A stretch of 20,010 nucleotides of DNA from a virus: positions 1-20,010 of the IMG/VR virus record IMGVR_UViG_3300015360_000249. One strand, given 5' to 3'. Positions within the stretch are counted from its first letter, which is position 1; each line of letters starts with the position of its first letter. The notes below the pieces were generated by a model. The model saw only the letters and a list, made by a program, of their open reading frames with translations, searched no databases and was not told where the DNA came from. The position numbers were made by a program, and so were the translations under genes. This document shows positions 852 through 20,004 of this stretch, piece after piece.

Positions 852-2642
852 CTAGAACTTTCCGAGGGTGATGTCGGCGGCGAGTTTCGCATAAACCATG
901 CTGTGGAGGGCGTCATCCGGTTGGTCGATAGGATGGTCGTACATCATAGTCCGGGTGCGATCGTTGTACTCTACGTACTCGGCCAGGATGTCCTTGGCGA
1001 ATGGCTCGAAGGCGTCCCAGGCGGGGAACATGAAATTCCCCTGCTTGATGTCACCAAAAAAGGTGGACATGGCAGCGTTCCGATTGACGATGAACTTGTA
1101 GGCGTTGGAGTCCCAGCGCTTGCGCTCGCCAAGGTTGGCGGAGTAGGCAAACTGCATGACGCCTTCCCTCCCACGGCTCTTGAACAGGCGGCTGTTCATG
1201 CCCCATCCGTGACCCCAGTCGGCGCCGATGATTTCGACGTTCCAGTGGGCGCAGATGTGTTCGACGTCGGGGAGGATTAGCTCCGGATCGACCTCCTTGC
1301 CGACGTACCGCTTCATCATGAAGGGCCAGAAGGTCTCGGCGTTGACGTAGGCTCCGAGGGTCAGGACGGTCCAAGAAGCGAACTTCTTCCTGCCCGAGTT
1401 GACCTCACCCTCTTCGCGACCTTCGCCCCAGTCGATGCCGGCAAAGATGCGCAGGCCGCTATGGGCCGGCCCCCGCGAGTAAGTGAAGTTCGAGCTGTCG
1501 ATGCCTTCGTGCTTCTTGACCGGCCAGCAGTTCTGCTGGATGTCCATGCGCGTAACCGGCGCGGATGCATTGTCGTAGGAGATCCCCAAGATCTCATTGT
1601 TGAACTTCGACTCCGGCCATTTCTCGTGCGGCATAACGATCTCGGTCCGCCAGGCGTCCTCGCTCTGCTTCCACGGGACCATCAGCTGTGAGATGTGGTA
1701 GCCGACGTAGAACTCATTTGGAGCGAAGCTGACCCACTGACCCTGCGCCGGATTGATGGCCTTGCCGCACTTCGAGCAGATCAGCCCCTTCCTGCCGATG
1801 CTGCGAGCGTCCAGGTAATTCCAGTAACGGCCCGATTCGCCGCCGGTGCAGTCGCAGGGGACCATCCATTCGTTCTGGGTGGACCACTGCCAGTACTCCT
1901 CGAGCGTGTTCGAGAAGGTCAACGGGGTGCCGGTAATCATCTCTTTGCCCGGGACACCCATCGAGAGCCGCGACGCCGACAGCGACTGGCTGATGACCTT
2001 GATGTTGTCCTTGAGGAGATCCTGAGCCTCGTCGAAGAAGACGCGGCTGGCTGGGATGCCTCGAGCTCGAGCGGCCGTGAGGAAGGCGTAACGCAGGAAG
2101 ATGTACGAGCCGTTAGCGAGGGTCTTCTCGAAGACCTGGTCCGTGACGCCCTTGTTGAACAGGTAGCGCTGGACGAACGGGGACTCGATCAGCGTCGGCC
2201 GCAGCTTCTCGTTGGAGTACTGCCGCGTCTGGAGGGCGGACGGCGAGACGTAGAGAGACCGCCAGTGCGGGCGAATGATCGATTCGATAATTTGCAGGTT
2301 GCAGACAGTCGTGGATTTCGAAACCTGTCGACTGCACTTCATTACCAGGCGCTCATCCTCATCGTTGTAGATGGGGAGCATGAAGGCGTGGTTGTCGAGG
2401 CGGAGCGGCCGGCCAAGGTGATAGAGCACGGCCTGGGCAATGTCGCTCTTGCGGCCCTGGAAGGTTGGGCGTGCCTTGCCGGGTCGGGTCAGCTGGGTGA
2501 GGCGTGGCTCCCAGTCATACTGGCCGTCCCGCTTGACGTCGTTGGCGAACGCCGGAGCGTCGTGATCGATCTCCTTGCCTGTGAAGTCAAATGGGTCCGC
2601 CTCCAGGTCGCTATCGTCGCCCTCGAGATCTGGGCCCTCCAT
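852..2642 (-). CDS. terL: Terminase large subunit (packaging ATPase-nuclease)
   Basis: TerL is the motor that pumps DNA through the portal and cuts it at the end of packaging. The ATPase half has a Walker A-like segment CSRQVSKSTT (residues 103-112, Lys109 before Ser110), Walker B VFFDEAQD (201-208, Asp204-Glu205) and the coupling motif TGTP (237-240). The RNase H-type nuclease half shows GIDWG (Asp404), GADWG (Asp475) and QPDDALH (Asp576/577), the usual metal-binding acids. Between the halves, Cys263, Cys265, Cys289 and Cys292 form a probable zinc knuckle. Walker A has Ser108 where Gly is usual. The length, 596 residues, is normal. A GAGGAGG ribosome site precedes the ATG, which shares one base (TAATG) with the stop of the upstream gene. 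The acidic N-terminus (about residues 1-35) looks disordered. Confidence 0.95.
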   Translation of the reverse strand: MEGPDLEGDDSDLEADPFDFTGKEIDHDAPAFANDVKRDGQYDWEPRLTQLTRPGKARPTFQGRKSDIAQAVLYHLGRPLRLDNHAFMLPIYNDEDERLVMKCSRQVSKSTTVCNLQIIESIIRPHWRSLYVSPSALQTRQYSNEKLRPTLIESPFVQRYLFNKGVTDQVFEKTLANGSYIFLRYAFLTAARARGIPASRVFFDEAQDLLKDNIKVISQSLSASRLSMGVPGKEMITGTPLTFSNTLEEYWQWSTQNEWMVPCDCTGGESGRYWNYLDARSIGRKGLICSKCGKAINPAQGQWVSFAPNEFYVGYHISQLMVPWKQSEDAWRTEIVMPHEKWPESKFNNEILGISYDNASAPVTRMDIQQNCWPVKKHEGIDSSNFTYSRGPAHSGLRIFAGIDWGEGREEGEVNSGRKKFASWTVLTLGAYVNAETFWPFMMKRYVGKEVDPELILPDVEHICAHWNVEIIGADWGHGWGMNSRLFKSRGREGVMQFAYSANLGERKRWDSNAYKFIVNRNAAMSTFFGDIKQGNFMFPAWDAFEPFAKDILAEYVEYNDRTRTMMYDHPIDQPDDALHSMVYAKLAADITLGKF

Positions 2643-3532: not shown

Positions 3533-5905
3533 TCATCGAACAAACCCGTAGGAGCTCGCCGCCGGGAGCAGGCGGCCGCCAACATGGGACCGCGGCGACT
3601 GCTTCACGGCAGACGTCTTCTCTTGGGTTTTGCTAAGCATCTGGAGGCGCTCGAGGCCGGCCAGGATCTTCTGGATGTGAGCCAGGGCGGCCCTGACGTT
3701 CTCCTCGGGGACATCCTCCATGCCCAGGCGGGAGGCCAGGAGCAGCTTGGCGAGCATCTGGCTAACCTCCCAGAGCATCGGCTTGGCGGACGCGAACCTG
3801 ACGATGTTCTCGTCGTTCACGAATCCGAGAGACAGGACGGCGTCAACGGCCTGCGCATCGTCGATGCTTGCAGCACACTTCAGCAGATCTCCGATAGGCG
3901 ACCGCACCGAGTCGATGAATGCCTTGATCTTAGGCGACGCCGTCTTGGCCATCCGGCCAGCTGCAGGGAAGCGTAGGTGGTGAACCTCGAGGCGGATGTG
4001 GTCCCTGGACCTGTCGAGGACCTCCGCGACCTTCTCGCTGCCAAGCCCCCAGTAGCCGAGCAGAAATTCAGCCTCGTGGCGGGCCAGCGAGTTGAAGTCG
4101 AACGACACTTTGCCCATCGCGGTCGCGCCTGCACCTGGAGCGGCAGGGGCGATGGGCTTCGGGGTCTCTACCTTCTTGTCGAGGCTGCCGGCCATGCCCG
4201 GCTTGACCGCGGGGGCGATGGGCTTCGGGGTCTCTACCTTCTTGTCGAGGCTGCCGGCCATGCCCGGCTTGACCGCGGGGGCGGTTACCGGCGGTTTGAC
4301 TTCCATCGTGCCGGCGCCCTGCGAGGGGCTCGACAGCGGGTTGGCATACTTGGAGATCGCACCACCCTTGAAGATGTAGCGGCCATTCGCCTGCGCCACC
4401 TTTACGGGATTCTTGTCCAGCCACTCAGCTGCCATCCGCTTGAAGTCGTCGGGGCCTTCCGAGACCTGGCAGAGGCGAGGCATGCGGACGAAGAACATCT
4501 TCGCCGACACGATGTAGTTCTTGCCGGCGCCCAGGAGTGGCCCAAGGGTTGACTTCTGCTTGTCGTTGACGGCGACGATGCCGTCGATATTGGGCGAGAT
4601 GATCAGGTTCGCGATGTGGCCCTGGTAGTCAACGACGCCAAGGCTGCGAAGGTTCTTGTAGACGGTCACCGAAGTTACCTGGAAGGGCACGGTGGCGAGC
4701 ACCCTGTCCCCATCGCGGTAAACCAAGGTCCCCATCTTGCCGGTGTCCGGCCGGTCGGCCTTGAGCGTGACATCGGCATCGTCGTTGAGGGCGATGCCGG
4801 CAATGCGGCCCTGCATGGAGGCGAGCGACTTGCCCAGGAACAGCTTGATCGGCTTGCTGGCGCCAGTGAAGTCGACGACGTTGGGGATGACCCAGCCCTT
4901 GGCCAGAACGCCGTCGGCATCCTTGACGCCGTAGCGACCGAACTTGTCGACGGTCCTGACGATTCGGTCGTCCTGCAGCGGATCGAACACCCAGGGATTC
5001 AGGTGCTTGCCCAGGCTGATGTTGCCGGCGGGGCCGTCGACCTCTTTGCCATAGACCGTCTCAGGAGGAATGACGGTGAAGTGACCGTACTGGTCGATGC
5101 TGTTGAGCGGATCTTGCTCGTAGTCCCACAGCTCGGACTTGCGCATCTCCAGGAAGCGCTTGAGCCCCTGGCGATCGGTCGAGATCATGACCGGGTCGTA
5201 GACCTCGTCAGGTGCCGAGAACAGGCGGTACTGGTTGGGGCCGTCCTTCTTGACGGTGAAGACCTCCGAGGCCCGCTCCTTGTTGGCGTCGTCCTGCTCG
5301 GTCTGCTTGGGAGCCTCGGCGGCGATCTTACGCAGCAGTGAGTCGGTGCCACGGCGGTGATAGGCCGCCAGCAGACGCGGCTCCTGTGCCACAGCCTGCT
5401 TAAACATCCGGAGATCGCCCGCGCCCAAGGTCCCGCTGATCGCCCCAATCATCGAGTGCGGCGAGGAGTAGGAGTACTTCCCGCCAATGGGCGGCGAGCG
5501 GACCTCTGCGAAGCTGTCGTCCGCCATCGCCGGAGGCGGGTTCGCGGGGGCGAGGCCGGTGCCCATGCTCGACTGGTAGAAGACCTTGGCCAGGTTGTCA
5601 TCGGTCAGCGGGTAGACCTTGTTCTCCTTGAAGAACAGGTCGATGGGCGCCAGATTCCATGACTTGACGATCGCCGGGATGCCGATCGAGTTACCGCTCT
5701 CGTCGGAGGCAATCGCCGAACCGATGGCGTAACCCTTTTCGTCGTCAACCTTCTGGAAGGTGACGGCGATGCTCAGGCCAAGGTCCTTCGGCAGCTTCTC
5801 GGCGACCAGGGCTGCGATCTCCTGCTGCCACTCACGGGCGTTGTCCGACAGCTTCTTGTACTGAACGCGACGGAACTGTGGGTCTTCTGAGAATAGGTTT
5901 TCCAT
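3533..5905 (-). CDS. Large unknown phage protein, probable virion component (790 aa)
   Basis: This is a 790-residue protein with no recognised enzyme motif. The N-terminal 130 residues include SIGIPAIVKSWNLAPIDLFF and VYPLTDDNLAKVFY. The centre (about 230-520) is rich in beta-strand segments. A Pro/Lys linker (about 530-595) holds two identical 22-residue repeats containing KPGMAGSLDKKVETPKP. The C-terminal part (about 600-760) is helical and includes a possible DNA- or protein-binding stretch near WGLGSEKVAEVLDRSRDHIR. There is no signal peptide or membrane span. The ATG follows a good AGGAG site 8 bases upstream. It lies between the spike gene pair and the TerL pair in one leftward operon, so a structural, internal-head or assembly role is likely. 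The repeated linker suggests a flexible tether between two folded halves. Confidence 0.78.
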   Translation of the reverse strand: MENLFSEDPQFRRVQYKKLSDNAREWQQEIAALVAEKLPKDLGLSIAVTFQKVDDEKGYAIGSAIASDESGNSIGIPAIVKSWNLAPIDLFFKENKVYPLTDDNLAKVFYQSSMGTGLAPANPPPAMADDSFAEVRSPPIGGKYSYSSPHSMIGAISGTLGAGDLRMFKQAVAQEPRLLAAYHRRGTDSLLRKIAAEAPKQTEQDDANKERASEVFTVKKDGPNQYRLFSAPDEVYDPVMISTDRQGLKRFLEMRKSELWDYEQDPLNSIDQYGHFTVIPPETVYGKEVDGPAGNISLGKHLNPWVFDPLQDDRIVRTVDKFGRYGVKDADGVLAKGWVIPNVVDFTGASKPIKLFLGKSLASMQGRIAGIALNDDADVTLKADRPDTGKMGTLVYRDGDRVLATVPFQVTSVTVYKNLRSLGVVDYQGHIANLIISPNIDGIVAVNDKQKSTLGPLLGAGKNYIVSAKMFFVRMPRLCQVSEGPDDFKRMAAEWLDKNPVKVAQANGRYIFKGGAISKYANPLSSPSQGAGTMEVKPPVTAPAVKPGMAGSLDKKVETPKPIAPAVKPGMAGSLDKKVETPKPIAPAAPGAGATAMGKVSFDFNSLARHEAEFLLGYWGLGSEKVAEVLDRSRDHIRLEVHHLRFPAAGRMAKTASPKIKAFIDSVRSPIGDLLKCAASIDDAQAVDAVLSLGFVNDENIVRFASAKPMLWEVSQMLAKLLLASRLGMEDVPEENVRAALAHIQKILAGLERLQMLSKTQEKTSAVKQSPRSHVGGRLLPAASSYGFVR
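4151..4282 (-). repeat. Perfect 66-bp tandem duplication inside the 790-aa gene
   Basis: Two adjacent 66-bp copies (4151-4216 and 4217-4282) are identical base for base. Each encodes one 22-residue unit, spanning about residues 542-585 of the protein, in a Pro/Lys-rich linker. The lack of any synonymous difference suggests a recent duplication. Because the unit is a multiple of three, copy number can change without breaking the frame. Confidence 0.97.
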
Positions 5906-8300: not shown

Positions 8301-8325
8301 AGACGGGCGCGCGCCCGTCTTTTTT
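8301..8325 (+). terminator. Intrinsic terminator with perfect 20-bp palindrome
   Basis: Bases 8301-8320 (AGACGGGCGCGCGCCCGTCT) are a perfect inverted repeat that forms a GC-rich hairpin. It runs into a six-T tract (8320-8325), a textbook rho-independent terminator for the ssb unit. It lies between convergent genes; the leftward peptidase gene stops at 8324-8326. On the minus strand the hairpin is followed by only three Ts, so it may stop leftward transcripts too, but less efficiently. Confidence 0.93.
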
Positions 8326-9406
8326 AGCCGGGCTTTGCGCCGCGGAACCCGCGTTGCGGATTGTTCAGGCTCTTGATCACATCGGCGAAGTACGCCGCCT
8401 TGCTCGGCGGCTTTGCCTGGGGATGGTCCTTTGCCCGCGACACAGGGCTCGAGCTGGGTCGCGTGGTCTTCGGCTTCGGCGCTGATGCGCCAGTGCGCCA
8501 GGCTGCGCTCGCTGATGCCCTCAGGATGCCAGGAGATTGGACTTCCTTCGTCGGCGCTGCCGCGACCTTCTCGCCGGCCAGTGCGCGACTGCGCATGTAC
8601 TCCATGACCTTCTGCGCTGCCAGGGTGGCAATGACCGGCACGGCGGCGGCCAGCGCATAGGTGCCGTAGGCGGGGAGTAGCTCCCTTGCCGTCCGGCCAA
8701 CGCCGGGGCCATAGCGCCGGGCACCTGCCAGCGCGTTGCCTGTGGCGCGCGCTTCCTCCAGGAGCTGGGGGGCGGACGTCGCCCCTACCAGGGCGGCCGC
8801 GTTGTCACGGGCGAAGCCGCGGACGTCGCTCTCACCCTCCTGCTCGGAGGTTATGGCGTTGGCCATGAGTGCCGCGCGTGCCGGTCCGCCGACGAGGCGA
8901 ACGCCGGCGCCGAGACCCTGCCAGGCATTCCGTAGCCGGGTGCTTCCCAGGATTGGCGCCGCGTGACCGATCTCATGCATCACCACGGGGACCGAGCCGA
9001 CCCTGGTGACGATCTGCTCTTTGCCTATCCCGAGCGGAAGACCGAGCTTGTCGGCCGCACGTCGAGCCTCCTCGGGTCCCATGACGTCGGCGACCCTCGG
9101 CATGCCGGGGAAGAACGCCGCATTGCCACGCGCGCCGCCTGCCACGATCGGGGTGCGGACGCCCTTCTTGGCTGCGAACTCAGTGAGGTCGTCAACCTCC
9201 CTGCGGGTGAAGGCTGCCAGATTCTCCAGGGGGGTGCCCGGCAGCTCGTTGATGGCTGGCATTTTGTCGAATCGCCTGACCATGGCAGCGCCTGCGGAGC
9301 GCTGCGCCGCTCGCCCGGCTGCCAGGGCGGCCATCATCGTCGCGACCGATGGGAGCGTCGATACTTCAAAATCCGGCGCTGGCGCCTGGTCTTCTTCTTC
9401 GCTCAT
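8324..9406 (-). CDS. Putative membrane-anchored zinc metallopeptidase (HEIGH motif)
   Basis: This 360-residue protein carries VVMHEIGHAAP with His144, Glu145 and His148, the HExxH signature of zinc peptidases. A likely third ligand lies in the acidic segment SEQEGESDVRGFARDN (about 187-202). A hydrophobic span follows at about 246-266 (AYGTYALAAAVPVIATLAAQ). The order HEIGHA, acidic helix, then A-Y-G-T-Y before a membrane span is reminiscent of YugP-type peptidases; this is inference from layout. The tail (about 285-345) is basic, Ser/Pro/Lys-rich and probably disordered. The start ATG overlaps the polymerase stop by one base (TGATG), so it is co-expressed with the polymerase. It could process virion proteins, act on the envelope or be a structural protein that retains the fold; the substrate is unknown. 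Confidence 0.7.
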   Translation of the reverse strand: MSEEEDQAPAPDFEVSTLPSVATMMAALAAGRAAQRSAGAAMVRRFDKMPAINELPGTPLENLAAFTRREVDDLTEFAAKKGVRTPIVAGGARGNAAFFPGMPRVADVMGPEEARRAADKLGLPLGIGKEQIVTRVGSVPVVMHEIGHAAPILGSTRLRNAWQGLGAGVRLVGGPARAALMANAITSEQEGESDVRGFARDNAAALVGATSAPQLLEEARATGNALAGARRYGPGVGRTARELLPAYGTYALAAAVPVIATLAAQKVMEYMRSRALAGEKVAAAPTKEVQSPGILRASASAAWRTGASAPKPKTTRPSSSPVSRAKDHPQAKPPSKAAYFADVIKSLNNPQRGFRGAKPG

Positions 9407-12400
9407 CAGTAAACGCCCTCAGTCTTGGACTTGCCCGTTGGATCTTCGCCGAACTCCGCCCCGTAGGCAAAGCCAGGGATTGGCGAGTAGCCGTGAAGGT
9501 CAGACTCCGCAGCTCGAGCCGCCCCCTCGACAATGGCCCCCTTGAGACGGCGGTAGCCCATCTGGCTCATCCAGTCATCGCGCATCATCGGGATCTCCTG
9601 AATGCCCTTGAGGAATGGGCGGTGCAGGATGGGCAGCACCCCCGTTTCGATCTCCGTTAGCCCGGAGCGCTCGAGTAGCTTCTTGACGCGGTCGTTAATC
9701 ACCGTGCCGCGTGCGACTCCTGGCACATCCTCCTGGAGTGTCATGCCGTGAGCCTCCTCGAGGCTTTTCTTGCCCAGCTTCCTGGCGTTGTAGTCCTCGA
9801 CGACGGTCCATGGCGCGACGTCGCCGTGGAGGAACTCGCTACCGCCGGGGTCAAGGACTCTGGTGGTGTTGCCAACAGAGCGGATGACCGTCTCGATCGA
9901 GCGACGCTTGAGGTCGACGCCCTGGCTGCTGTAGGCGGACTGGATCTCATTTGCCAGGTACTCCTGGGCCGACCGCATCCCCTTTAGTCTGGCGAGTTCA
10001 TCTGGCTGAGCCAGGCCGGACGAGAGGATGTCGCCCTTGACCACCTGTCCGCCGACGCGAACCCGGCCCGGGTCCCACAGGTCATTCGAGATGTAGTGGT
10101 TCTTGCCGCCGATCTTCACGTCCCTGCCCGTAGCACCGACGGACACGGAGACGCTGTCAACGACACCGTCGGACTGTGACAAAGTGGCGCGCCCCTTCTT
10201 GATCTCGGGCATCTTAAGGAGCTTGTCGATCTTGTCGTAGCCGGTGACCACGCCGCGGGTGCCGGAGATTCCGCCCGAGTGGAAGGTACGCATGGTCATC
10301 TGCGTGAGCGGCTCGGACATCGACTGCCCCGACGTGGCCCCAACGTTGTCGCCAATGGACGGGGACATGCCGTGCTCATTGAGCCCGTAGCACTTCCCGC
10401 AGACCCCCTTCGGGAGACGACACGTAATCGGAGACCGAACGTCGATAGTCTTGATTCTTCTGTCGCGAAGGGTGCTCAGGAGGCCGGCCGTCACCTGGCT
10501 TCCGGCCGGAGCAATGACATCCCCCCTGACCGAGATGTCCTTGGCCAAGAATCTGTCCTCGGCGTCGGATGAGCCGGTGGCGATGTCGAGGCCCTCCCTG
10601 GTCCCGCAGTCATCCTTGGCGATGACGGTCGCGACCGACGTGGCCATGATGTCCTTATTGAACTCGCCCGGCTTGCTGGTCTGAAGCTGCTTGTCGACAG
10701 CGGCTGCGCGAGCGCCATACAGCGTGCTCCAGTAATCCGAGAATCGGAGACCCTCGGAGAAGGAGTTCATGACCGGGAATGGCGAAGCGTTGCCGCGGTG
10801 GTCGTCGACCATGAACGGCGTCGACACCGTCTGCTTGAGCTGGTTCAGGTTGCCGCGGGCGCCGGACTGAACCATGAGGTTCAGGTTATTCGACTGAGCA
10901 TTGAGCCCAGCGACAACCGCCAAGTCCAGCTCTTTGTTAGCGGCTCCGGTGATCTGGCGGCCTTGCTCTCGACCGTCCACGCTGGACAAGTCCAGTTTCG
11001 ACAGCGACTTCGCCGTTCGGTCGAAGATGTCCTGCCTGCCCGGGATGTTCGGCGTCAAATCCTTCATGCTGACGGTGAAGCCGGTCCGATAGGTGTGCTC
11101 GTCACCGAGGGCTTTCAGCTTATCCAGGACCTTGCCGTAATCCCGCGGCATGGCCTCGGCGAGGTCGCGAGTCAGGGCGCTAAGCCCCTTCTTGTTCAGC
11201 TCAACATCCTTGAACTTCTCCTGTAGCTGCGCCGGTAACGCGGCCAGGATGTCGTTCTTCTTTACCGAGTCCTGCGACATCAGAAAGAGTCCGAGGGCGG
11301 CCTCGTTCTGTGGCTGCATCATGATCTGACCGGTGCCGGGGTTGTAGAGGTTGTTGGATGGCAGCATCCGCTTCGCCTCTTCCACGGCATCTGGCAGCAC
11401 CGGGACGTGGACCGTCATGGCGTCGCCGTCGAAGTCGGCGTTGAACCCCTTGACCACCAGTGGTGGAATCTTGATGGCCTTGCCGCTGGTGATCTGCGGC
11501 TTGAACGACATGATGGAGAACTTGTGCAGCGACGGGGCGCGATTGAGGATGACGGGGCGCTCGAGCATCTCCGCATCCAGGGCCGCCCTCGCCGCCGGCG
11601 TGCGGTCGCGCACCTCCCTCGAGGCATCGCTCGGAGACTTGCCGGCCGAGTTGACAAGTCTGCGGGTGATGAAGGGCTGGAAGATGCTCCACGACATCTC
11701 CTCCGGTAGACCAACCTCGTCGAGCCCCAGCTTCGGCTCCGGAATGATGGTGCCGCGGCCGACCAGGTCCTGGTTTCGCTTGAGGACGCTCTTGATGAAG
11801 AAGCCTTCCTTCGCTGCTTTCTCGCCCTTAATCTGCTTGATGATGCCCTGGGGGACGCGCATCTTTGGATACTTGGCGATCGGATCCCCGAGGCCATAGA
11901 TCGCCGCCACGCCGTCGTAGAGGTTCTGGCGGAGCTCGGCTTTCGACCCCTCGGGCATGTAGTCGATGCCCTTCTGCCAAGCCAGCTCGTTGTTGATGAG
12001 GCTGACGTCTCGGTAGAGCGTGTTGAGGCCGGGGTTCGAGATCTGCCCGTCGTCGGTCTCGACGATCTGCCTGAACTGCGGTGGGATGATCGGGATCTTG
12101 CTCTGGACGTACGCGTCCTCGGGTCGCACGCCAATCTTCTTGAGGGCGTGCAGGTACTTCAGGCGCTTATTCGCCTCGTCCAACTTCGCCGCCGTCTTGG
12201 ACTGCTTGGCCTTGTCGGTCCACGACTTGATGTCGGTATCGATGTCGATGCCGCTCAGCATCTTCTGGATGGCCGGGCCGCCGGTGAGTCCGTGGTCCGC
12301 CCACTCTCCGGTCGCAGGGTCGACGAACAGATCGCCCTTGACCAGGCCGGTGTACTGCGTGTCATTCATCCCCGTCAGCTTCTTGATGGGGTTCTCGAAT

Positions 12401-15400
12401 ACCGGGTTCGGGATCGACTCGGAGAGCTCGATATGGCCCCACCGATCACCGAACTTCCCTCCGAAGATGCTTGGGTCCATCAGGCCGCCAACTTCTTCGC
12501 GCAGATCCTTGCCGCGCACGAAGATGGGCTCAGTAATGGCTCCCGAGCTCATGCTCGAAACCTCCCTGTCGGTCATTGGCTGGATGACCATCTTTGAGCC
12601 ATTGCGCTTGGTGTTTACGCCGGCGCCGTTGAGGTACGCCTCGAACTTCCTGTACGCAAAGGTTGGCTGCGGCGGCGGTGCCACCTGGCCGCTCTTGTGT
12701 CCAGCGGAGAGCCAGTTCCAGAAGTGCTCGTTCTGGGAACCCTTATAAGTCGCCATCTCGCGCAGGTTGGCGCGGCTGCCGTGCGACAGCATCGAGTAGA
12801 AGGACAGAAGGTCTAGCGCCTTGGCGCCGTCCTCGCCACCTCGCAGCGGGGCTCGGTTGATGTCGTACTTGCCGTCGTTGCGGGCGGAGAACTGCGACGT
12901 CGCCTGCTTGGACAGCTTGAGCACGTACTGTGGTCCGACGAGCACGTCACCGAGGGCCTCCTTGCTGTGGGCGTCGTACAGGGTCTCCGTGTCGGAGATC
13001 TTGTTCTTTGCCAGCTCCGCAGCCATGTCCCGCGCGTAGTCGGCACCAGTGAAGTTATCGACGATGTACGGCTTGCCGGACTTGGTGGCAATCTTCGCAG
13101 CAGCCGTCTCCAAGATCTGAGATGGGTTGATGCGCGTGACGATGCCGTGGGGGTTGAGGAGGATGTCGACCTTCTCTGAAGTGCCGTCGGCGTTCTGTGT
13201 ATACGGGGCTTCGCCGTCGGCGATGATCTTCGTGATGATGCCCTTGGCGCCGTGCCTGTTCGTCAGCTTGTCGCCGATCTGCGCCGGCTCCTCGGTCTTG
13301 ATGTAGACCTTGACCTTCTTGCCGGTCTTGATGACGTCGACCACCACACCGTCGGTGTCGCCCGTCCACTCTTCCATGTGACCGCGGCGCGGGTTCGTGT
13401 TCGGTGCGATCTTCTTCATCGCCAGGTAGTCGGGGTCATACCGGTTCTCCCGGGTCCCGACCCAGAGCGGATCGCCCTTTTTGATGATCTGCCCCTTTCG
13501 GACAACACCGTCGGTGTCCAGCATCTCCTGCTGCTCCGGGGTGAGCGCCCCGGGGCGCCAGGCCATGAAGGCGTCCTTGGAGAACGTGTCGCCTTTGTCG
13601 GCCGAGATCGCATGCTCATGCATGTGCTCGCTGGACAGCTTCTTGGCCGCAGCCTCGGTGATGACGATGCCGTCTTCGAAGTTGTAGCCTTTGTACGGGA
13701 TATACGCCGCCCGCAGATTAGTACCCAGGGCCATCGTTCCACCGCTGGTGAAGTTGGAGTCTGCGATGACCCCACCCTTCTTGATCTCATCGCCGGCTTT
13801 CACGGTCGCGGTAGCGTGCAGGAACGACTTCCCGTTGAGCGGGAGATTATTGTAAATCGGCTGCTCGACGACGCCGTCGGATGTCCTGATGGTAATGCGA
13901 TTGGGCGTGACCTTTTCGACAACGCCATCGCTCAGTGACCGGACCGAGAACCCTTCGCCGATCGTGTTTTCGATAGTCCCTTTGCCAACCTTGACCTGCA
14001 CCAGAGGTACCTCCCGGTAGGTGAGCGGGAGCGCCTGTTCGATCATCTTCGTCGCCATCTGGGCCCGCACACCCTGCGCCGACTGAAGGAATGGGATGGT
14101 GTTGGATGCGATGGAGAATGCCTGCTTCGACGAGGCAAGGACGGCGTCGACCTGGTCGGCCCTGACCATCTGCATCTCGCCGTGAACCATCGCTTTGACC
14201 TTGTTGCCGATGAGCTTGCCGTCCTGGTACTGGTCCGGGAAAGCGAGGACCATGTCGCGCACGTCGGCCGGTGTCGCCCAGCGCCTTGCGCCGTCCTTGA
14301 TCGAGATGATCTGAGTCTGAAGGTCGTCGCCCTTCCTGCCGCCACCGAGTGGCAGGTTCATCACGACGCCGATCTTGCTCGAGTCGGGCGTGTGAATTGG
14401 ATCGATGAACCCCATGTGTGACGGATGGAGCGAGTGCTCCTCGTCGCGGATGGCCCGCTCGGACTGCACGCCACCCTCGCCCAGGATGGTGATCTTGGAC
14501 ATGCCGTTCAAGATGTTGACCGGGTTGGTCTGGTCGGTCGTGTTGGCCAGGGCGGACTGCGTGAAGAAACTGGTGAAGATGGAGCTGAGCTCGTTGGAGC
14601 TGACCAGCTTGGAGATGTCCGTCGGTGGCGCCTTGCGATTGTTCAGGCGGTAAAAAATCTTCTTGCGCAGCTCGGACAGCTTGGGCGCGAGCTCGCCGGT
14701 GCTCTGAATCATCCGCTCGCCAATGAGGTCGGAGGTGCCAAGCGCCTTCTTGAACTCCAGCGCCTCTCGGTCGTCGATGCCGCGCTGTCCCCGGTTGAGC
14801 TTTAGCAGCTCGGCTGAACCGTAAAGCAGCGTCTCGGGGCCAACTCGACTGAACTCCTTGCCAAGAGTTGCCTTGGTGACCTCCGGCCTGAGCTCGGCGT
14901 CGGTGTCAAAGAAGCTACTGATGGCAACAGCTGCCGCATCGGGCGAGTCGTGCTTACTGCGAGTGAAGTACTCGCCTGCCTTCAGGACCGCCTTGGTGGC
15001 GTCCTTCTCCTTGATCGCCTTGTTGGCCTCGAGGACATCGGCGCCCCACGCCTTGGCCATGGCCGAGTCGGAGATGCCGATGCGGGACAGGAGCGGGTAG
15101 AGCGGAACGCCAGTCGAGTCCAGGCCGCCACGCATCAGCTTGAAGACGCCGCTCTCGTTGTCGTACTTGATGTCGAAGGGTCGCCCCGCGATGTTGATCT
15201 CGGTCTTCTTCTCGCCGTTCTTCTTCTCGGTGACGTAGACGCCGGGCTTGCGGCGAAGCTGGTTCTGAACCTGGTAGTGCTTTCCGTCGACGATGAAGCT
15301 GCCGAGGTCTGTGGTCTTGGGAAGAGTTGCGACCTTCAGTTTATTTGCCGACGAAAGCACGGCACCAGTCTTACGATCGACCAGATCCATTGCGGCGTAG

Positions 15401-15606
15401 ACGGGAACACCCCAAGTCCTGTCCTTGCGAACCGCCTCGCGCTGAGACTCCCAGTCGGACGAGTCCTTGTTGTCGTCGACCCAAACGTTTTTGACGACAA
15501 TCTTTCGCCCCGTACCGGTTGCCTGGATATCCAGGGCCTTCGAAAAGGACGCGACAACGTCCTTCTTGATCTTCTCGAACTGGCTCTCGTGGTCAAAGGG
15601 GTTCAT
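9406..15606 (-). CDS. rpoBC: Single-chain fused beta-beta' DNA-directed RNA polymerase
   Basis: This 2066-residue chain contains a complete catalytic core of multisubunit RNA polymerase. The beta half (about 1-1000) has the fork region LHPSHMGFIDPIHTP (393-407), NFEDGIVITE (from 642) and GDKLTNRHGAKG (778-789, Lys780 and Lys788 at the active site). The beta' half starts near Met1006. It has clamp helices (about 1197-1238), NADFDGD (1389-1395, Mg-binding Asp1391/1393/1395), bridge helix (about 1625-1660), zinc cysteines 1667, 1729, 1736 and 1739, and trigger loop TMRTFH (1771-1776). The C-terminus matches the cellular beta' end (GYSPIPGFAYG). The beta' N-terminal zinc ribbon is absent and each half is shorter than in E. 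coli. It is the first gene of an operon with the peptidase. No alpha, omega or sigma gene is visible. Possible roles are late-gene transcription or a virion-packaged enzyme. Confidence 0.97.
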   Translation of the reverse strand: MNPFDHESQFEKIKKDVVASFSKALDIQATGTGRKIVVKNVWVDDNKDSSDWESQREAVRKDRTWGVPVYAAMDLVDRKTGAVLSSANKLKVATLPKTTDLGSFIVDGKHYQVQNQLRRKPGVYVTEKKNGEKKTEINIAGRPFDIKYDNESGVFKLMRGGLDSTGVPLYPLLSRIGISDSAMAKAWGADVLEANKAIKEKDATKAVLKAGEYFTRSKHDSPDAAAVAISSFFDTDAELRPEVTKATLGKEFSRVGPETLLYGSAELLKLNRGQRGIDDREALEFKKALGTSDLIGERMIQSTGELAPKLSELRKKIFYRLNNRKAPPTDISKLVSSNELSSIFTSFFTQSALANTTDQTNPVNILNGMSKITILGEGGVQSERAIRDEEHSLHPSHMGFIDPIHTPDSSKIGVVMNLPLGGGRKGDDLQTQIISIKDGARRWATPADVRDMVLAFPDQYQDGKLIGNKVKAMVHGEMQMVRADQVDAVLASSKQAFSIASNTIPFLQSAQGVRAQMATKMIEQALPLTYREVPLVQVKVGKGTIENTIGEGFSVRSLSDGVVEKVTPNRITIRTSDGVVEQPIYNNLPLNGKSFLHATATVKAGDEIKKGGVIADSNFTSGGTMALGTNLRAAYIPYKGYNFEDGIVITEAAAKKLSSEHMHEHAISADKGDTFSKDAFMAWRPGALTPEQQEMLDTDGVVRKGQIIKKGDPLWVGTRENRYDPDYLAMKKIAPNTNPRRGHMEEWTGDTDGVVVDVIKTGKKVKVYIKTEEPAQIGDKLTNRHGAKGIITKIIADGEAPYTQNADGTSEKVDILLNPHGIVTRINPSQILETAAAKIATKSGKPYIVDNFTGADYARDMAAELAKNKISDTETLYDAHSKEALGDVLVGPQYVLKLSKQATSQFSARNDGKYDINRAPLRGGEDGAKALDLLSFYSMLSHGSRANLREMATYKGSQNEHFWNWLSAGHKSGQVAPPPQPTFAYRKFEAYLNGAGVNTKRNGSKMVIQPMTDREVSSMSSGAITEPIFVRGKDLREEVGGLMDPSIFGGKFGDRWGHIELSESIPNPVFENPIKKLTGMNDTQYTGLVKGDLFVDPATGEWADHGLTGGPAIQKMLSGIDIDTDIKSWTDKAKQSKTAAKLDEANKRLKYLHALKKIGVRPEDAYVQSKIPIIPPQFRQIVETDDGQISNPGLNTLYRDVSLINNELAWQKGIDYMPEGSKAELRQNLYDGVAAIYGLGDPIAKYPKMRVPQGIIKQIKGEKAAKEGFFIKSVLKRNQDLVGRGTIIPEPKLGLDEVGLPEEMSWSIFQPFITRRLVNSAGKSPSDASREVRDRTPAARAALDAEMLERPVILNRAPSLHKFSIMSFKPQITSGKAIKIPPLVVKGFNADFDGDAMTVHVPVLPDAVEEAKRMLPSNNLYNPGTGQIMMQPQNEAALGLFLMSQDSVKKNDILAALPAQLQEKFKDVELNKKGLSALTRDLAEAMPRDYGKVLDKLKALGDEHTYRTGFTVSMKDLTPNIPGRQDIFDRTAKSLSKLDLSSVDGREQGRQITGAANKELDLAVVAGLNAQSNNLNLMVQSGARGNLNQLKQTVSTPFMVDDHRGNASPFPVMNSFSEGLRFSDYWSTLYGARAAAVDKQLQTSKPGEFNKDIMATSVATVIAKDDCGTREGLDIATGSSDAEDRFLAKDISVRGDVIAPAGSQVTAGLLSTLRDRRIKTIDVRSPITCRLPKGVCGKCYGLNEHGMSPSIGDNVGATSGQSMSEPLTQMTMRTFHSGGISGTRGVVTGYDKIDKLLKMPEIKKGRATLSQSDGVVDSVSVSVGATGRDVKIGGKNHYISNDLWDPGRVRVGGQVVKGDILSSGLAQPDELARLKGMRSAQEYLANEIQSAYSSQGVDLKRRSIETVIRSVGNTTRVLDPGGSEFLHGDVAPWTVVEDYNARKLGKKSLEEAHGMTLQEDVPGVARGTVINDRVKKLLERSGLTEIETGVLPILHRPFLKGIQEIPMMRDDWMSQMGYRRLKGAIVEGAARAAESDLHGYSPIPGFAYGAEFGEDPTGKSKTEGVY

Positions 15607-16825: not shown

Positions 16826-17189
16826 ACCTTGCCTCCTCGGCCCGAATGTCTGCGTCGATGACGCGAATCTTCTCCACCGCCGCCTTGACAGCCTTCTTGG
16901 ATTCTTCAATCTTGGCCGTACCCTCGGCGACCTTCTGGTCGATCACATCCTGGGACGCCTTCAGCTCCGTCACGAACTTCTCGTGGCGGAGCTTGGCAAG
17001 CTCCTGGTTGCGTCGCCAGCTGATCCAGGCCCAGACCGCCATGCCGATCAAGGCTGTGGCAATAAGGATCAGCGCGCTGACCCATGACTTGCCACCGCCG
17101 GTCTCGGCTTCCTTCTTCTCCGTGACCACATCCTTGAGCTTGCCCAGGATGGATGCGGGGTCGAAGGAGGACGGCGCCTGGTCGGCCAT
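16758..17189 (-). CDS. Membrane-anchored coiled-coil protein (143 aa), inner-spanin-like
   Basis: About 35 polar residues are followed by one strong membrane span (36-58, VSALILIATALIGMAVWAWI) and a long charged coiled coil (about 60-130, including KIEESKKAVKAAVEKIRVID). This is close to an inner-membrane spanin (Rz-type), in which the coiled coil crosses the periplasm; in Rz the cytoplasmic part is shorter. The 3' end overlaps the start of the secreted coiled-coil gene by 68 bases in a different frame, again Rz/Rz1-like. It starts 4 bases after the stop of the holin-like gene, with only a weak ribosome site. Other possibilities are a tail or injection membrane protein. No database support is available. 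Confidence 0.75.
   Translation of the reverse strand: MADQAPSSFDPASILGKLKDVVTEKKEAETGGGKSWVSALILIATALIGMAVWAWISWRRNQELAKLRHEKFVTELKASQDVIDQKVAEGTAKIEESKKAVKAAVEKIRVIDADIRAEEARYAADLRAIDSIRSWRDVDPSVR
16832..16838 (-). promoter_or_regulatory. Ribosome-binding site that decides the start at 16825
   Basis: The minus strand reads GAGGAGG here, 6 bases before the ATG at 16825. The longer frame starting at 16909 has a strongly basic, unnatural-looking N-terminus and would place a signal peptide internally. The site therefore supports the shorter protein, and it lies inside the coding region of the upstream gene. Confidence 0.8.
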
Positions 17190-17193
17190 CTCG

Positions 17194-17733
17194 CTACTTC
17201 TTAGCCTTCGGACCGGTCTCGGGGATGGCGGAAGTCACCGAGACGGCAGCTGCCGTGGCGGCCTCGTCCATGCGGATCTCGAACAGGTTGGCCTCGATGA
17301 GCCCCTCGAGCTTTTCGCGAGCCATGTCAGGGAGCTTCTGCTGCTTGGCCATCTCGATCGCCCAGTTCGCGGCGACCTCCATGACTTCCGGTCCAGGCAG
17401 CTTCTTGCCGTCGGTGACGTCCTTCATCTTCTTGCGAGCGTACTCGCCGCCGCGCATGGCGGCCTTGCGCGCGAGCTCCGACCAGGCGTCAGCGGTCTTC
17501 TGGCCGACGTCGATGCCGACCTTCTTCTGGATCTTGTTGAGCAGCCAGGTGGCCAGCGCGCCAACGAGGGCGACGAACACCGGGATGAGGATGTTCAGGA
17601 CCTCCGACGAGGCGTTACCGAGGGCGGTGTCCGCAGCTGCCAGGGATGGGAGGCAGACGATCGCGATCGCGACCAGGCTAGCCCACAGAACGTTCTTTGA
17701 CCCAGTCGCGCCGTGCTTCTTTGACATCCGCAT
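17194..17733 (-). CDS. Holin-like membrane protein (179 aa)
   Basis: Two hydrophobic segments are visible: a signal-like N-terminal one (about 13-35, VLWASLVAIAIVCLPSLAAA) and a membrane span (about 45-67, LNILIPVFVALVGALATWLL). A long charged helical region follows (ARKKMKDVTDGKK, then EVMEVAANWAIEMAK, then LEGLIEANLFEIR). A short membrane N-terminus followed by a helical region with a Glu-Ala-rich last helix resembles LLH-type phage holins, which make holes in the inner membrane at lysis. This is a layout comparison. The ATG at 17733 (GGGAG 6 bases before it) overlaps the preceding gene; another ATG lies two codons later. It is followed by the two coiled-coil membrane genes, so the three may be a lysis cassette. 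Confidence 0.65.
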   Translation of the reverse strand: MRMSKKHGATGSKNVLWASLVAIAIVCLPSLAAADTALGNASSEVLNILIPVFVALVGALATWLLNKIQKKVGIDVGQKTADAWSELARKAAMRGGEYARKKMKDVTDGKKLPGPEVMEVAANWAIEMAKQQKLPDMAREKLEGLIEANLFEIRMDEAATAAAVSVTSAIPETGPKAKK

Positions 17734-18028
17734 CGCTGTCTCCCTTTTCGAGTAACGGTTTCTTGATCCAGTAATGGACCACCAAGAACACTTCCTCGGT
17801 CGTCGTCACCATGGCTTCTTCGCCATCGCCGTCGCGAGTCGTCTTCTTGCGAGTATATTCCCGGATTTGCTCAATATAGATACCCCGGGATGCGTCATTC
17901 GCGTTGGTCCGGAGCGTCGCGTACTTGTCCATGTCCTCGTCGTCGAACATGTTGTAGCGACCGACGACGAACTCGCCGAGGTTCTTGCCGCCGATTGAGA
18001 CCTTAACTTCACTTGCCTTGGCAGCCAT
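17678..18028 (-). CDS. Unknown small protein between portal and holin-like genes (116 aa)
   Basis: This 116-residue charged protein starts MAAKASEVKVSIGGKNLGE. It contains DDEDMDKYATLR and a probable beta hairpin TTTEEVFLVVHYWIKKPLL, and is soluble in appearance. It shares one base with the portal stop (TAATG) and overlaps the holin-like gene by 56 bases, so the three are translated in close linkage. The position after the portal suggests a head or connector accessory protein, but no motif supports a precise call. Confidence 0.75.
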   Translation of the reverse strand: MAAKASEVKVSIGGKNLGEFVVGRYNMFDDEDMDKYATLRTNANDASRGIYIEQIREYTRKKTTRDGDGEEAMVTTTEEVFLVVHYWIKKPLLEKGDSDADVKEARRDWVKERSVG

Positions 18029-20004
18029 TAGATGGTCCCCGCCTCACGCCGCGGAGGGGCACTCTGCGGCAATGGCTTGTTGCGCTCCTCGGATTCACCG
18101 GCGGTCTCGCCGGTCTGCATCTGGGTCAGGATCTGTTCAACCAGGCGCGCCATATTCGGCATCTTCTGCCGCAGGTCTGCCAGGACGGATGCGCGCTGAT
18201 CTGGCGGAATCCTTGAGATGCGATTCGCCCACTGCTTGGCGACCCTGGAGGCGTCCATCTGGACAACCTGCCCACCAGACTGGGTCCCGGCCTCGCCCTC
18301 GACGTTGGCTGGAAGCTGGGCTGCGCCCTGCTGGGCTGCCTGCTCGCTCATCTGCTGATCGGCGCCCATCTGGTCGGCGTTCGGGGCTTGCTGTTGCCCC
18401 TGCTCGGCGTACTGAGGCTGCTCGCCCTGCGCTTGTCCCTGCGCCTGCTCGCCCTGCGCGGGCTGACCGCCGGACTGCCCGCCTGACGCCTCGTTCATGG
18501 CCTCCTGGGCACGGGCCTGGTACTTGGCCTGGACGATGGACGCCTCGCCCTGGGCCTCGGTCTGGGCCTTCATGGTGACGGCCTGGATGCGGTTACGCTG
18601 CTCCGCTTCCTTCTCGATCATCTTGAGCTCGTCGTCGTAGTCGAACCCGAGCTCGGTGAGCATCGTGTGATCGGAGATCTTGTTGGCGGCGTTGAGCTGG
18701 ATGACGATCTGCTTGCGCTGGATATCGTCCGCCATCTTGAACTCGGTGAACCCGATCTCAATGTCGGGGAGGCCGAGGTAAAGGCGGATGCGGTTCTTTG
18801 ACCAGTTGACGAAGCGGAGCAGTAGGCGACGGTGCATGAGGAAGTGGTTCTCGAGGGTGCGCAGCGACACGCTGGACCCCGACCACGACAGGCCACCGAA
18901 CACGAACTCCAGCGGCACGCCCATGCCGCCAGTAATCTCCTTGTTCGTGACCTCAATCTCGGGACCTAGCAAAAGGGCTCGGCCGTCCCCTCCGAGGCGC
19001 TCGAATCCGAGCGGCACTGCGACGACCGAGATGTAATTGGGGTCAGTCCGCCACTTGCGGATTTCGTTCTGCACCGTGCCCTGCCAGCTGGACAGGTTGA
19101 CGTGCTGATACGGATCCTGCTGGGCGTTGGCCTGCGGGAAGATGAACTCTAGCGGCATGATGCGCTGGAGGGCGATTGCTTCCTGGGCTCGGCGCAGGAC
19201 GTACAGATAGAACATGCGGCCCATCGAGTGAATGATGAGCGGCTTGCCCCAGCCCATGTCCGCCTCGGCCAGCGTCGGGCGCTTGAAGTGGAAGAGGTTC
19301 TGGTCAGAGAGTGCGATGTCGCGCTTCTGCTTTAGGGCCTGAAGGAAGATGTCCGGTATATCCACCAGGACGCTGCGGTCGCCCTGCTGGACGGCCTTCT
19401 GGATCTTGTTGGGGATCTTGTAGCGGTACTTCGACCGCCCCGTGATCGGGTTGTAGTGGATGTCGATGTTCTTCGGATCCCAGCGGACGAAGTTGATACC
19501 GCTGCGGTCGCGAAGTGGCTTGTCGACGATCTTGGCCGTGCAGCTGGTGCCGCAAGACGCGCACTTGATGTTGAATCCGTAGTTCTGGAACTTGTAGTCA
19601 ACCGATGGATCCGACAGGCGGAACATCGTCGAGCAGCCCGTGCACTGCAGCCAGCGCACGAACGGCAGGTTGATGGAGATGAAGGCGTTGCCGTAACAAA
19701 AGAAATCAAGCCCGATCTCGATGAGGAAGGGCTTGAGGTTGAGGGTGTCCTCCATCAACTCCTTCCATCCGTCGCGGACGTGCTTCTCCTCGGCGTTGTA
19801 GACGAAGTCGGTGACGGGGTACTCGGCCATCTTGGTGACGACCGACCCGATCATCGGGTCCTTGTAGAAGAAGTAGGCGCACCACCTGAACAGTTCCTTG
19901 ACTGTCGGTGGCATGTAGGTCTGCGCAATATCGAAGAACGGGGACGGATAAACCGTTCCCCGCCTCCGATCTGCGCCGCCCTGGCCTAGCGAGACGTCGG
20001 ACAT
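18028..20004 (-). CDS. Phage portal protein with zinc-ribbon insertion
   Basis: The portal forms the dodecameric ring through which DNA enters and leaves the head. The 658-residue protein has a typical order: N-terminal wing and helices (residues 1-110, ending IEIGLDFFCYGNAFISINLP), a beta-rich clip/wing region (about 165-240, NFVRWDPKNIDIHYNP), and a long stem/crown region with ITGGMGVPLEFVFGG (357-371) and SWSGSSVSLRTLENHFL (373-389). Between them, Cys121, Cys124, Cys148 and Cys151 (plus Cys155) form a probable zinc ribbon. The C-terminus has a Gln/Gly/Ala-rich disordered stretch (about 505-580) and a helical end (585-630). The ATG at 20004 is near the window edge and no upstream gene is visible, although a minus-strand TAG lies at 20008-20010. 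Confidence 0.88.
   Translation of the reverse strand: MSDVSLGQGGADRRRGTVYPSPFFDIAQTYMPPTVKELFRWCAYFFYKDPMIGSVVTKMAEYPVTDFVYNAEEKHVRDGWKELMEDTLNLKPFLIEIGLDFFCYGNAFISINLPFVRWLQCTGCSTMFRLSDPSVDYKFQNYGFNIKCASCGTSCTAKIVDKPLRDRSGINFVRWDPKNIDIHYNPITGRSKYRYKIPNKIQKAVQQGDRSVLVDIPDIFLQALKQKRDIALSDQNLFHFKRPTLAEADMGWGKPLIIHSMGRMFYLYVLRRAQEAIALQRIMPLEFIFPQANAQQDPYQHVNLSSWQGTVQNEIRKWRTDPNYISVVAVPLGFERLGGDGRALLLGPEIEVTNKEITGGMGVPLEFVFGGLSWSGSSVSLRTLENHFLMHRRLLLRFVNWSKNRIRLYLGLPDIEIGFTEFKMADDIQRKQIVIQLNAANKISDHTMLTELGFDYDDELKMIEKEAEQRNRIQAVTMKAQTEAQGEASIVQAKYQARAQEAMNEASGGQSGGQPAQGEQAQGQAQGEQPQYAEQGQQQAPNADQMGADQQMSEQAAQQGAAQLPANVEGEAGTQSGGQVVQMDASRVAKQWANRISRIPPDQRASVLADLRQKMPNMARLVEQILTQMQTGETAGESEERNKPLPQSAPPRREAGTI

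Follow-up and report, generated by a model that had tools for sequence, protein, structure and literature searches.

A fused beta-beta' RNA polymerase gene and the phage lineage that carries it

One frame for beta and beta'

The stretch of DNA analysed here, called the window, comprises positions 1 to 20,010 of IMG/VR virus record IMGVR_UViG_3300015360_000249 and carries at 9406..15606, on the minus strand, a gene for a fused beta-beta' DNA-dependent RNA polymerase (RNAP) of 2066 amino acids (aa). The frame runs from an ATG start at 15606 to 9406 with no internal stop, which bears out the one uninterrupted frame described in an earlier reading of the letters (the sequence-only reading) and places it on the minus strand. 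Judged from structure models of residues 1-1010 (m02b12af6dfef) and 872-2066 (m67d69153db8e), the beta part spans residues 1-1003 (12598..15606, minus strand) and the beta' part residues 1004-2066 (9409..12597, minus strand). Pfam finds Rpb2 domain 6 (5.9e-47), Rpb2 domain 3 and Rpb1 domains 1, 2, 4 and 5, in the normal order of beta domains followed by beta' domains, the Rpb1_1 and Rpb1_4 matches scoring under the curated cut-offs. The top NCBIfam models are bacterial beta/beta' and beta' equivalogs, and all 15 NCBIfam scores listed fall below the model cut-offs, among them those of the best match, NF007172 (502.5 bits against a cut-off of 5372), and of NF011417 (436.9 against 4632). PHROG families labelled as phage RNAP beta, which are presumably of the phiKZ/AR9 kind, match far more weakly than the bacterial beta/beta' models.

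Relatives were gathered by scans of IMG/VR and of named phages. After loci with a beta or beta' part shorter than 850 aa had been left out and copies with identical C-terminal stretches removed, the fused clade, to which named Salmonella and Vibrio phages belong, was counted at 107 non-redundant members (from 124), to be compared with 49 (from 50) phages in which beta' and beta are separate genes (split-gene phages) and with 67 bacteria. The motifs listed in the sequence-only reading all lie where it had put them: NFED at residues 642-645, the beta lysine motif GDK...RHGAKG at residues 778-789 (13240..13275, minus strand; both Lys in 107/107 members), the catalytic Mg-binding loop NADFDGD at residues 1389-1395 (11422..11442, minus strand; Asp triad in 107/107) and the trigger-loop TMRTFH at residues 1771-1776 (10279..10296, minus strand; His in 106 of 107). 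At the trigger-loop Arg position the members have K (37), R (30), N (15) or S (10), so that 62 of the 107 have one of K, N and S in place of the Arg. On these motifs the identity of the protein as a double-psi-barrel, multisubunit-type DNA-dependent RNAP is close to certain.

The protein had also been called near-canonical, a description that suits its catalytic motifs and fails at two other places. At the place expected for the first beta' zinc-binding domain (12445..12459, minus strand; Cys-motif count and alignment with E. coli) the motif is absent, and this Cys motif is found in 0/107 fused, 49/49 split-gene phage and 67/67 bacterial beta' sequences; the second zinc site persists, each of its Cys residues being present in 104-105 of the 107 fused members. 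The beta flap tip (13309..13335, minus strand) is shortened, with a median of 6 residues in 71 fused rows against 18 in 67 bacterial rows, a count restricted to rows that fit the search pattern (71/107 fused and 44/49 split-gene). Split-gene rows have 72-78 residues here, so the shortening is not common to them. Changes are also seen in the counterpart of the rifampicin pocket (14470..14568, minus strand; alignment with E. coli), where the window protein has N, G, K and T at the positions of E. coli Q513, H526, R529 and S531, which we take to be rifampicin-contact residues. Bacteria have Q, H, R and S at these positions in at least 63 of 67 cases, and the 107 fused members retain Q in 30, R in 25 and S in 2, the clade being mixed at two of the four positions. 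From these changes insensitivity to rifampicin would be predicted.

The claim that almost no linker separates the two halves is upheld both by homology and by the predicted structure. Beta homology stops at about residue 1001 and beta' homology begins at about residue 1006, as mapped on the near-identical frame of locus L002. The AlphaFold2 model of residues 872-2066 has a mean predicted local distance difference test score (pLDDT) of 89.7 and a predicted template modelling score of 0.86, with 78 sequences in the alignment, and the model of residues 1-1010 likewise has a pLDDT of 89.7. DSSP assigns a helix to residues 983-994, strands to 997-1002 and 1005-1010 and a helix to 1013-1019, so that the junction (residues 997-1010; 12577..12618, minus strand) consists in the models of the C-terminal strand of beta and the N-terminal strand of beta', joined by a two-residue turn. 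In the structure alignment, residue 17 of E. coli beta' is matched by residue 1003 (model residue 132). Cellular enzymes have the final strand of beta close to the initial strand of beta', and the meeting of the two termini as a hairpin would explain why no linker is needed. As had been anticipated, each half resembles its bacterial counterpart: the best VIA match of the beta model is cyanobacterial beta 9dvs_C (Z 42.4, root-mean-square deviation (rmsd) 4.5, 927 residues aligned), and the beta' model matches 4lk0_D, the beta' of E. coli (Z 34.5, rmsd 3.0, 939 residues aligned). The models thus indicate that the beta and beta' folds are both present in the window protein, at 19-30% identity to the solved cellular cores in the match list. 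No phiKZ- or crAss-type chain is found among the best 50 Protein Data Bank matches of either model. In a library of viral folds the best match is a protein of 1127 aa (template modelling score 0.68), equal in length to the beta' of Rhizobium phage RHph_TM30, and the phiKZ-like beta' of Ralstonia phage RP31 scores far lower.

A chance or misassembled frame can be ruled out. A second IMG/VR record (G001, 100,342 bases) contains the same frame intact at 99.9% DNA identity, with 18 DNA differences over the length of the window; the frame is also intact in relatives at 86% and 76% amino-acid identity, and ratios of nonsynonymous to synonymous substitution of 0.089 and 0.18, even over beta, beta' and the junction, indicate that it is under purifying selection.

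The neighbours of the RNAP gene are phage genes, in keeping with its description as a phage protein. Upstream lies a gene for a portal-like protein (18028..20004, minus strand; phrog_16240 1.1e-5, phrog_64 2.5e-5). Downstream, a gene for an unknown protein of 360 aa (8324..9406, minus strand) starts on the last base of the RNAP stop codon, a one-base overlap, and it is followed in the same direction by several unknown genes and by a GpA-type large terminase (TerL; 852..2642, minus strand; PF05876 1.6e-11, phrog_675 8e-51).

The fused clade and its relatives

Among 142 clade loci, in which some contigs are included twice and locus L007 is left out, a single frame spans the junction in 140, and the remaining two are stopped by contig ends. 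Locus L007, from a faecal record, has beta and beta' in separate frames. These counts indicate that the fused RNAP is no singleton and belongs to a large, widespread and little-noticed phage lineage; in open-licence papers no literature on a fused beta-beta' phage clade was found, and none naming phage Arash, its Salmonella member. The lineage had been predicted to be distinct, and it does form its own clade in the trees of each half described below, although with 107 non-redundant relatives it is not isolated.

Breaks in the chain are seen away from the joint, near residues 510, 733, 1100 and 1450. The break near 510 is a group I intron in beta (RF00028, >100 bits), found in Vibrio phage D181 (L029:2368-2648) and at L120:11536-11817; the two introns share one site, and a homing endonuclease is annotated alongside in D181. 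The break near 733 is a single in-frame TGA (L077:12218-12220) in an otherwise full-length fused RNAP, and represents either a sequencing error or a recoded stop. Near residue 1450, after the catalytic loop, the chain is broken in Salmonella phage Arash and Vibrio phage D69, where the C-terminal part of beta' is a separate downstream gene; the two Arash pieces are gp206 and gp216, the C-terminal one lying 4.8 kb away. In a subgroup of the Arash type (L121-L136) an additional break near 1100 leaves the first ~100 beta' residues on beta. Arash, D69 and D181 have the beta-beta' fusion at a junction identical to that of the window and differ from it in the cut in beta' after the catalytic loop (~1450). 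Vibrio phage D148 was seen as a match row only. In-frame inserts resembling LAGLIDADG inteins were observed in relatives at highly conserved motifs (catalytic loop, trigger loop, GDK/HGAKG and HTP). Two occur in one 3010-aa frame (L094:14129-15706 and 16919-18211), and the others lie at L102:2680-3627 and 4750-5847, L109:12329-13396 and L090:11174-12241. PF14528 is matched in four of the six; one L102 insert weakly matches NCBIfam models that contain inteins, and the other has no match beyond helicase and polymerase models, which may themselves include inteins.

Trees were built separately for the two halves by a quick search, with support from the Shimodaira-Hasegawa-like approximate likelihood ratio test (SH-aLRT), some long branches and no inferred root; phiKZ, AR9 and crAss sequences were left out of both. 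In the beta tree (77 rows) bacteria form a single clade (100), and fused and Arash-type sequences together form one clade of 38 rows (SH-aLRT 97). The beta' tree (83 rows) has a corresponding 38-row clade (SH-aLRT 100) and separates all phages from bacteria plus giant-virus-like sequences (SH-aLRT 99), bacteria alone being without support as a clade (31). Neither half of the phage protein branches inside a bacterial genus. Split-gene phages occupy two places in the beta tree, and forcing them into a single clade is not rejected (approximately unbiased test, p 0.285). The Arash type is nested inside the fused clade in both trees, so the fusion is probably older than the breaks, and beta and beta' appear to have been joined once, in the ancestor of the lineage, the joint having been kept since.

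These trees also bear on whether the gene came from a host, either as contamination or as a recent capture of a bacterial rpoB-rpoC fusion of the Helicobacter kind. Such fusions exist (NF007172, NF011417; locus L165) and resemble the window protein in having one chain in beta-beta' order, and NF007172 is its top NCBIfam match. However, that match reaches only 502 bits against the cut-off of 5372, and the L165 frame is different, at 2901 aa and with the zinc motif present. The Helicobacter fusion groups with Campylobacterota in both trees, which indicates an event independent of the phage fusion, whereas the fused phages are placed, in the beta tree, apart from the bacterial side and, in the beta' tree, apart from the side shared by bacteria and giant-virus-like sequences. 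The first of two GTDB scans gave no phage-type relative, and the best 80 loci of the second were all of the bacterial type. With its phage neighbours and with the NCBIfam cut-offs, the position in the trees rules out a host source, the chance of which we regard as negligible. Several phage-labelled records (among them OR844998.1, OR846602.1 and CAKLQH020000005.1) carry seemingly plain bacterial rpoB/rpoC and, judged from match rows and names, are probably contaminated.

The split-gene phages are the second phage group, with kin such as Yersinia phage GN1, Cobetia phage Carin-5 and RHph_TM30 (in which only beta' was found). Like the fused RNAP, theirs is a phage-encoded bacterial-type beta/beta' with the catalytic residues, grouped with the other phage sequences in the beta' tree. 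They differ in that a beta' gene comes first and a separate beta gene follows, and in having the first beta' zinc motif. Against the E. coli subunits they score about equal to the fused lineage, so the view that the window RNAP is closer to the cellular enzyme stands as far as its strong bacterial beta/beta' matches go and is not peculiar to it. In many of the split-gene phages at L218-L297, beta' is ~900 aa long and ends right after the trigger loop.

It is important to establish whether the fused clade was already described as mReC, a group of 97 contigs from IMG/VR whose capsids and terminases, where Pfam gave a match, are of families PF07068 and PF03237 (Weinheimer & Aylward, 2020; PMC7481178). 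The source of data is common to both studies, the beta' tree sets all phage rows apart from the other sequences, and the window has beta and beta' profile matches on a tailed-phage contig, as asked of mReC, here with Pfam/NCBIfam models instead of COG; the COG searches for the two subunits could, in principle, both accept a fused protein (PMC7481178). However, fusion is spoken of in the main text of that paper for crAss-like phages only, the stem 'fus' occurring there twice. Markers were surveyed in 36 records (24 fused-clade, 12 split-gene), of which those from IMG/VR may be incomplete. The PF07068 (gp23-type) capsid is matched in 0/24 fused-clade and 7/12 split-gene records, the PF05876 terminase in 23/24 and 1/12 (the latter weak), and the PF03237 terminase in 6/24 (2 over the cut-off) and 7/12, the two terminase models overlapping on the same frames. 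Arash and D69, within the fused clade, both match PF05876, and Arash also matches PF03237 over the cut-off. Given the capsids and terminases of mReC, the split-gene group probably corresponds to mReC, and the fused clade falls outside it. Membership of the fused clade in mReC is very unlikely and is provisionally rejected on these differing matches, as compared with the main text of PMC7481178, although some fused contigs may be among the 97.

Two other kinds of phage RNAP were compared. The phiKZ/AR9-type RNAPs, which are not known to use alpha, are likewise phage-encoded with catalytic double-psi-barrels, and consist of at least four polypeptides where the window RNAP is one open reading frame. 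Jumbo-phage RNAPs are described as having beta/beta' in at least four proteins, with typically two enzymes per phage (PMC7598289; PMC7824862; PMC12153180). The crAss-like gp66 and YonO share the single chain of the window RNAP and are reported to be very divergent from cellular enzymes (PMC7481178; PMC7598289; PMC7824862; PMC12153180). Among 60 phage records matched by tblastn (40 rows and a tally of names), none is named for a gp66 or YonO phage.

Partners and role of the fused enzyme

Pfam models for alpha and omega, which are positive in 13 and 14 of 14 control genomes, match in 0/36 of the surveyed records for either subunit, the 12 split-gene records included. The lack of a match in the 24 fused-clade records fits assembly without a phage-encoded alpha. 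Sigma region 2 is matched in 8/24 fused-clade and 0/12 split-gene records, and region 4 (E up to 1e-3) in 14/24 (9 over the cut-off) and 0/12; one or the other is present in 15/24 fused-clade records, or 11/24 over cut-offs. Locus L315 encodes a full sigma70-type protein. The Carin-5 record annotates a sigma factor beside its RNAP that the sigma models used here missed, so the zero for split-gene phages reflects a limit of those models. In the species of the window, protein P0008 (162 aa) has five Cys and a sigma region-4 helix-turn-helix; small proteins in which a Cys cluster is followed by such a helix-turn-helix lie at L022:11023-11508 (G001, minus strand) and L328:1297-1773, and are candidates for a minimal initiation factor.

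These observations could also be accommodated by a hybrid enzyme, in which the fused chain would serve as a core modified by the phage and would still depend on host alpha and/or omega, and on host sigma. The beta' structure alignment extends to E. coli residue ~1374, which suggests that much of the surface is retained, phage alpha and omega were not found in the 36 records by Pfam, and nine of the 24 fused-clade records have no sigma-like match. On the other hand, the fusion would remove the main need for alpha in assembly, and the chain has diverged from the solved cellular cores (19-30% identity). We regard a hybrid enzyme as quite unlikely.

A different role would be that of a virion RNAP: the chain would be carried in the particle, enter the cell together with the DNA and transcribe early genes, a role ascribed to one of the two jumbo-phage RNAPs (PMC7598289; PMC7824862; PMC12153180). 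The gene sits among head and packaging genes, with the portal-like gene on one side and TerL on the other; of the 21 records in which both the RNAP and a TerL match were placed, 13 have the latter on the same strand, 5-13 kb downstream. Moreover, one RNAP locus was detected per record (22/22, with the window protein as query, which could miss a very divergent second), so that early genes would need another source of transcription if this enzyme is not packaged. Several relatives carry sigma-type factors, which speaks against this role. Arash gp206 and gp216, unlike many of its proteins, are not labelled 'structural' in the stretches of the record viewed, but this argument is weak because the Arash portal, capsid and terminase are likewise without the label. 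A packaged enzyme is unlikely, though it deserves real weight.

Collectively, we think it probable, with considerable room for doubt, that the fused protein is an alpha-free, single-chain, sigma-directed phage RNAP that mostly transcribes later phage genes. In bacterial RNAP, alpha brings beta and beta' together. In the fused enzyme, the two-residue turn between the last beta strand and the first beta' strand would allow beta and beta' to fold as one unit, bypassing the alpha-dimer assembly step. The resulting core, in which the catalytic residues are kept, lacks the first beta' zinc-binding motif and has a much reduced flap tip, and phage sigma-like proteins would direct it to phage promoters, the partner being a full sigma70-type factor in some relatives and perhaps the 162-aa Cys-rich sigma4 protein in the window species. 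Made in the host, the RNAP would then most likely transcribe later phage genes. It is alpha-free assembly, the sigma partnership, the timing and the catalytic activity that we infer here, and several points weigh against them. Sigma-like matches are missing from 9/24 fused-clade records (13/24 if only those over cut-offs are counted), and where region 4 is the sole match, the protein may be of some other helix-turn-helix kind. Sigma4 usually docks on the flap tip, so a sigma4-like protein would need another way of binding to an enzyme whose tip is trimmed. The absence of alpha and omega is one of Pfam matches, in IMG/VR records that may be incomplete; late timing is argued by analogy, and a virion enzyme could likewise be encoded in the head module. 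The fuller proposition that the complete core is one chain without alpha or omega, served by its own sigma-like factor (in the window species a minimal Cys-rich sigma4 protein), joined once and, in all loci seen, re-broken only elsewhere, is tentative, with chances a little short of even.

Two repeated words were noted in G001 as possible promoter elements. TGGCATAAG occurs in 5 copies, all on the minus strand, against 0.43 expected by base composition; one copy lies upstream of the RNAP gene but is oriented away from it, and each of nine relatives' sequences has 0 to 2 exact copies. The word was chosen after looking, and with a maximum of 4 copies of an 8-mer in shuffled sets, against 5, it is only a lead as a promoter word. 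GCTGGCATAAG was seen on the minus strand of G001 (L020-L024), for example at 5286, 13546, 54032, 54183 and 61915, upstream of minus-strand frames and once, by eye, right after a terminator-like hairpin and T run. It is not enriched in the relatives scanned, and is a possible promoter.

With a natural, widespread single-chain RNAP that has a cultured member, Arash, the need for alpha, omega, the beta' zinc-binding domain and the flap tip becomes open to direct experiment, and a bacterial-type polymerase could be produced from a single gene. The lineage also stands out among phages by its own type of RNAP, a terminase match that is mostly its own and the lack of a gp23-type capsid match. The distinction of this lineage from the probable mReC bears on how often phages have acquired cellular-type polymerases.

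Elsewhere in the window, a direct repeat with a 66-base step (4146-4283) lies inside a gene for a 790-aa protein (3533-5905) that varies in length among relatives, with 760 aa in L004 and 849 aa in L003. The top 25 families matched by the G001 proteome (78 frames) include rIIA/rIIB-like proteins, ThyX, RadC and DNA methylases, together with MCM-like and other helicases and a PolB-like exonuclease.

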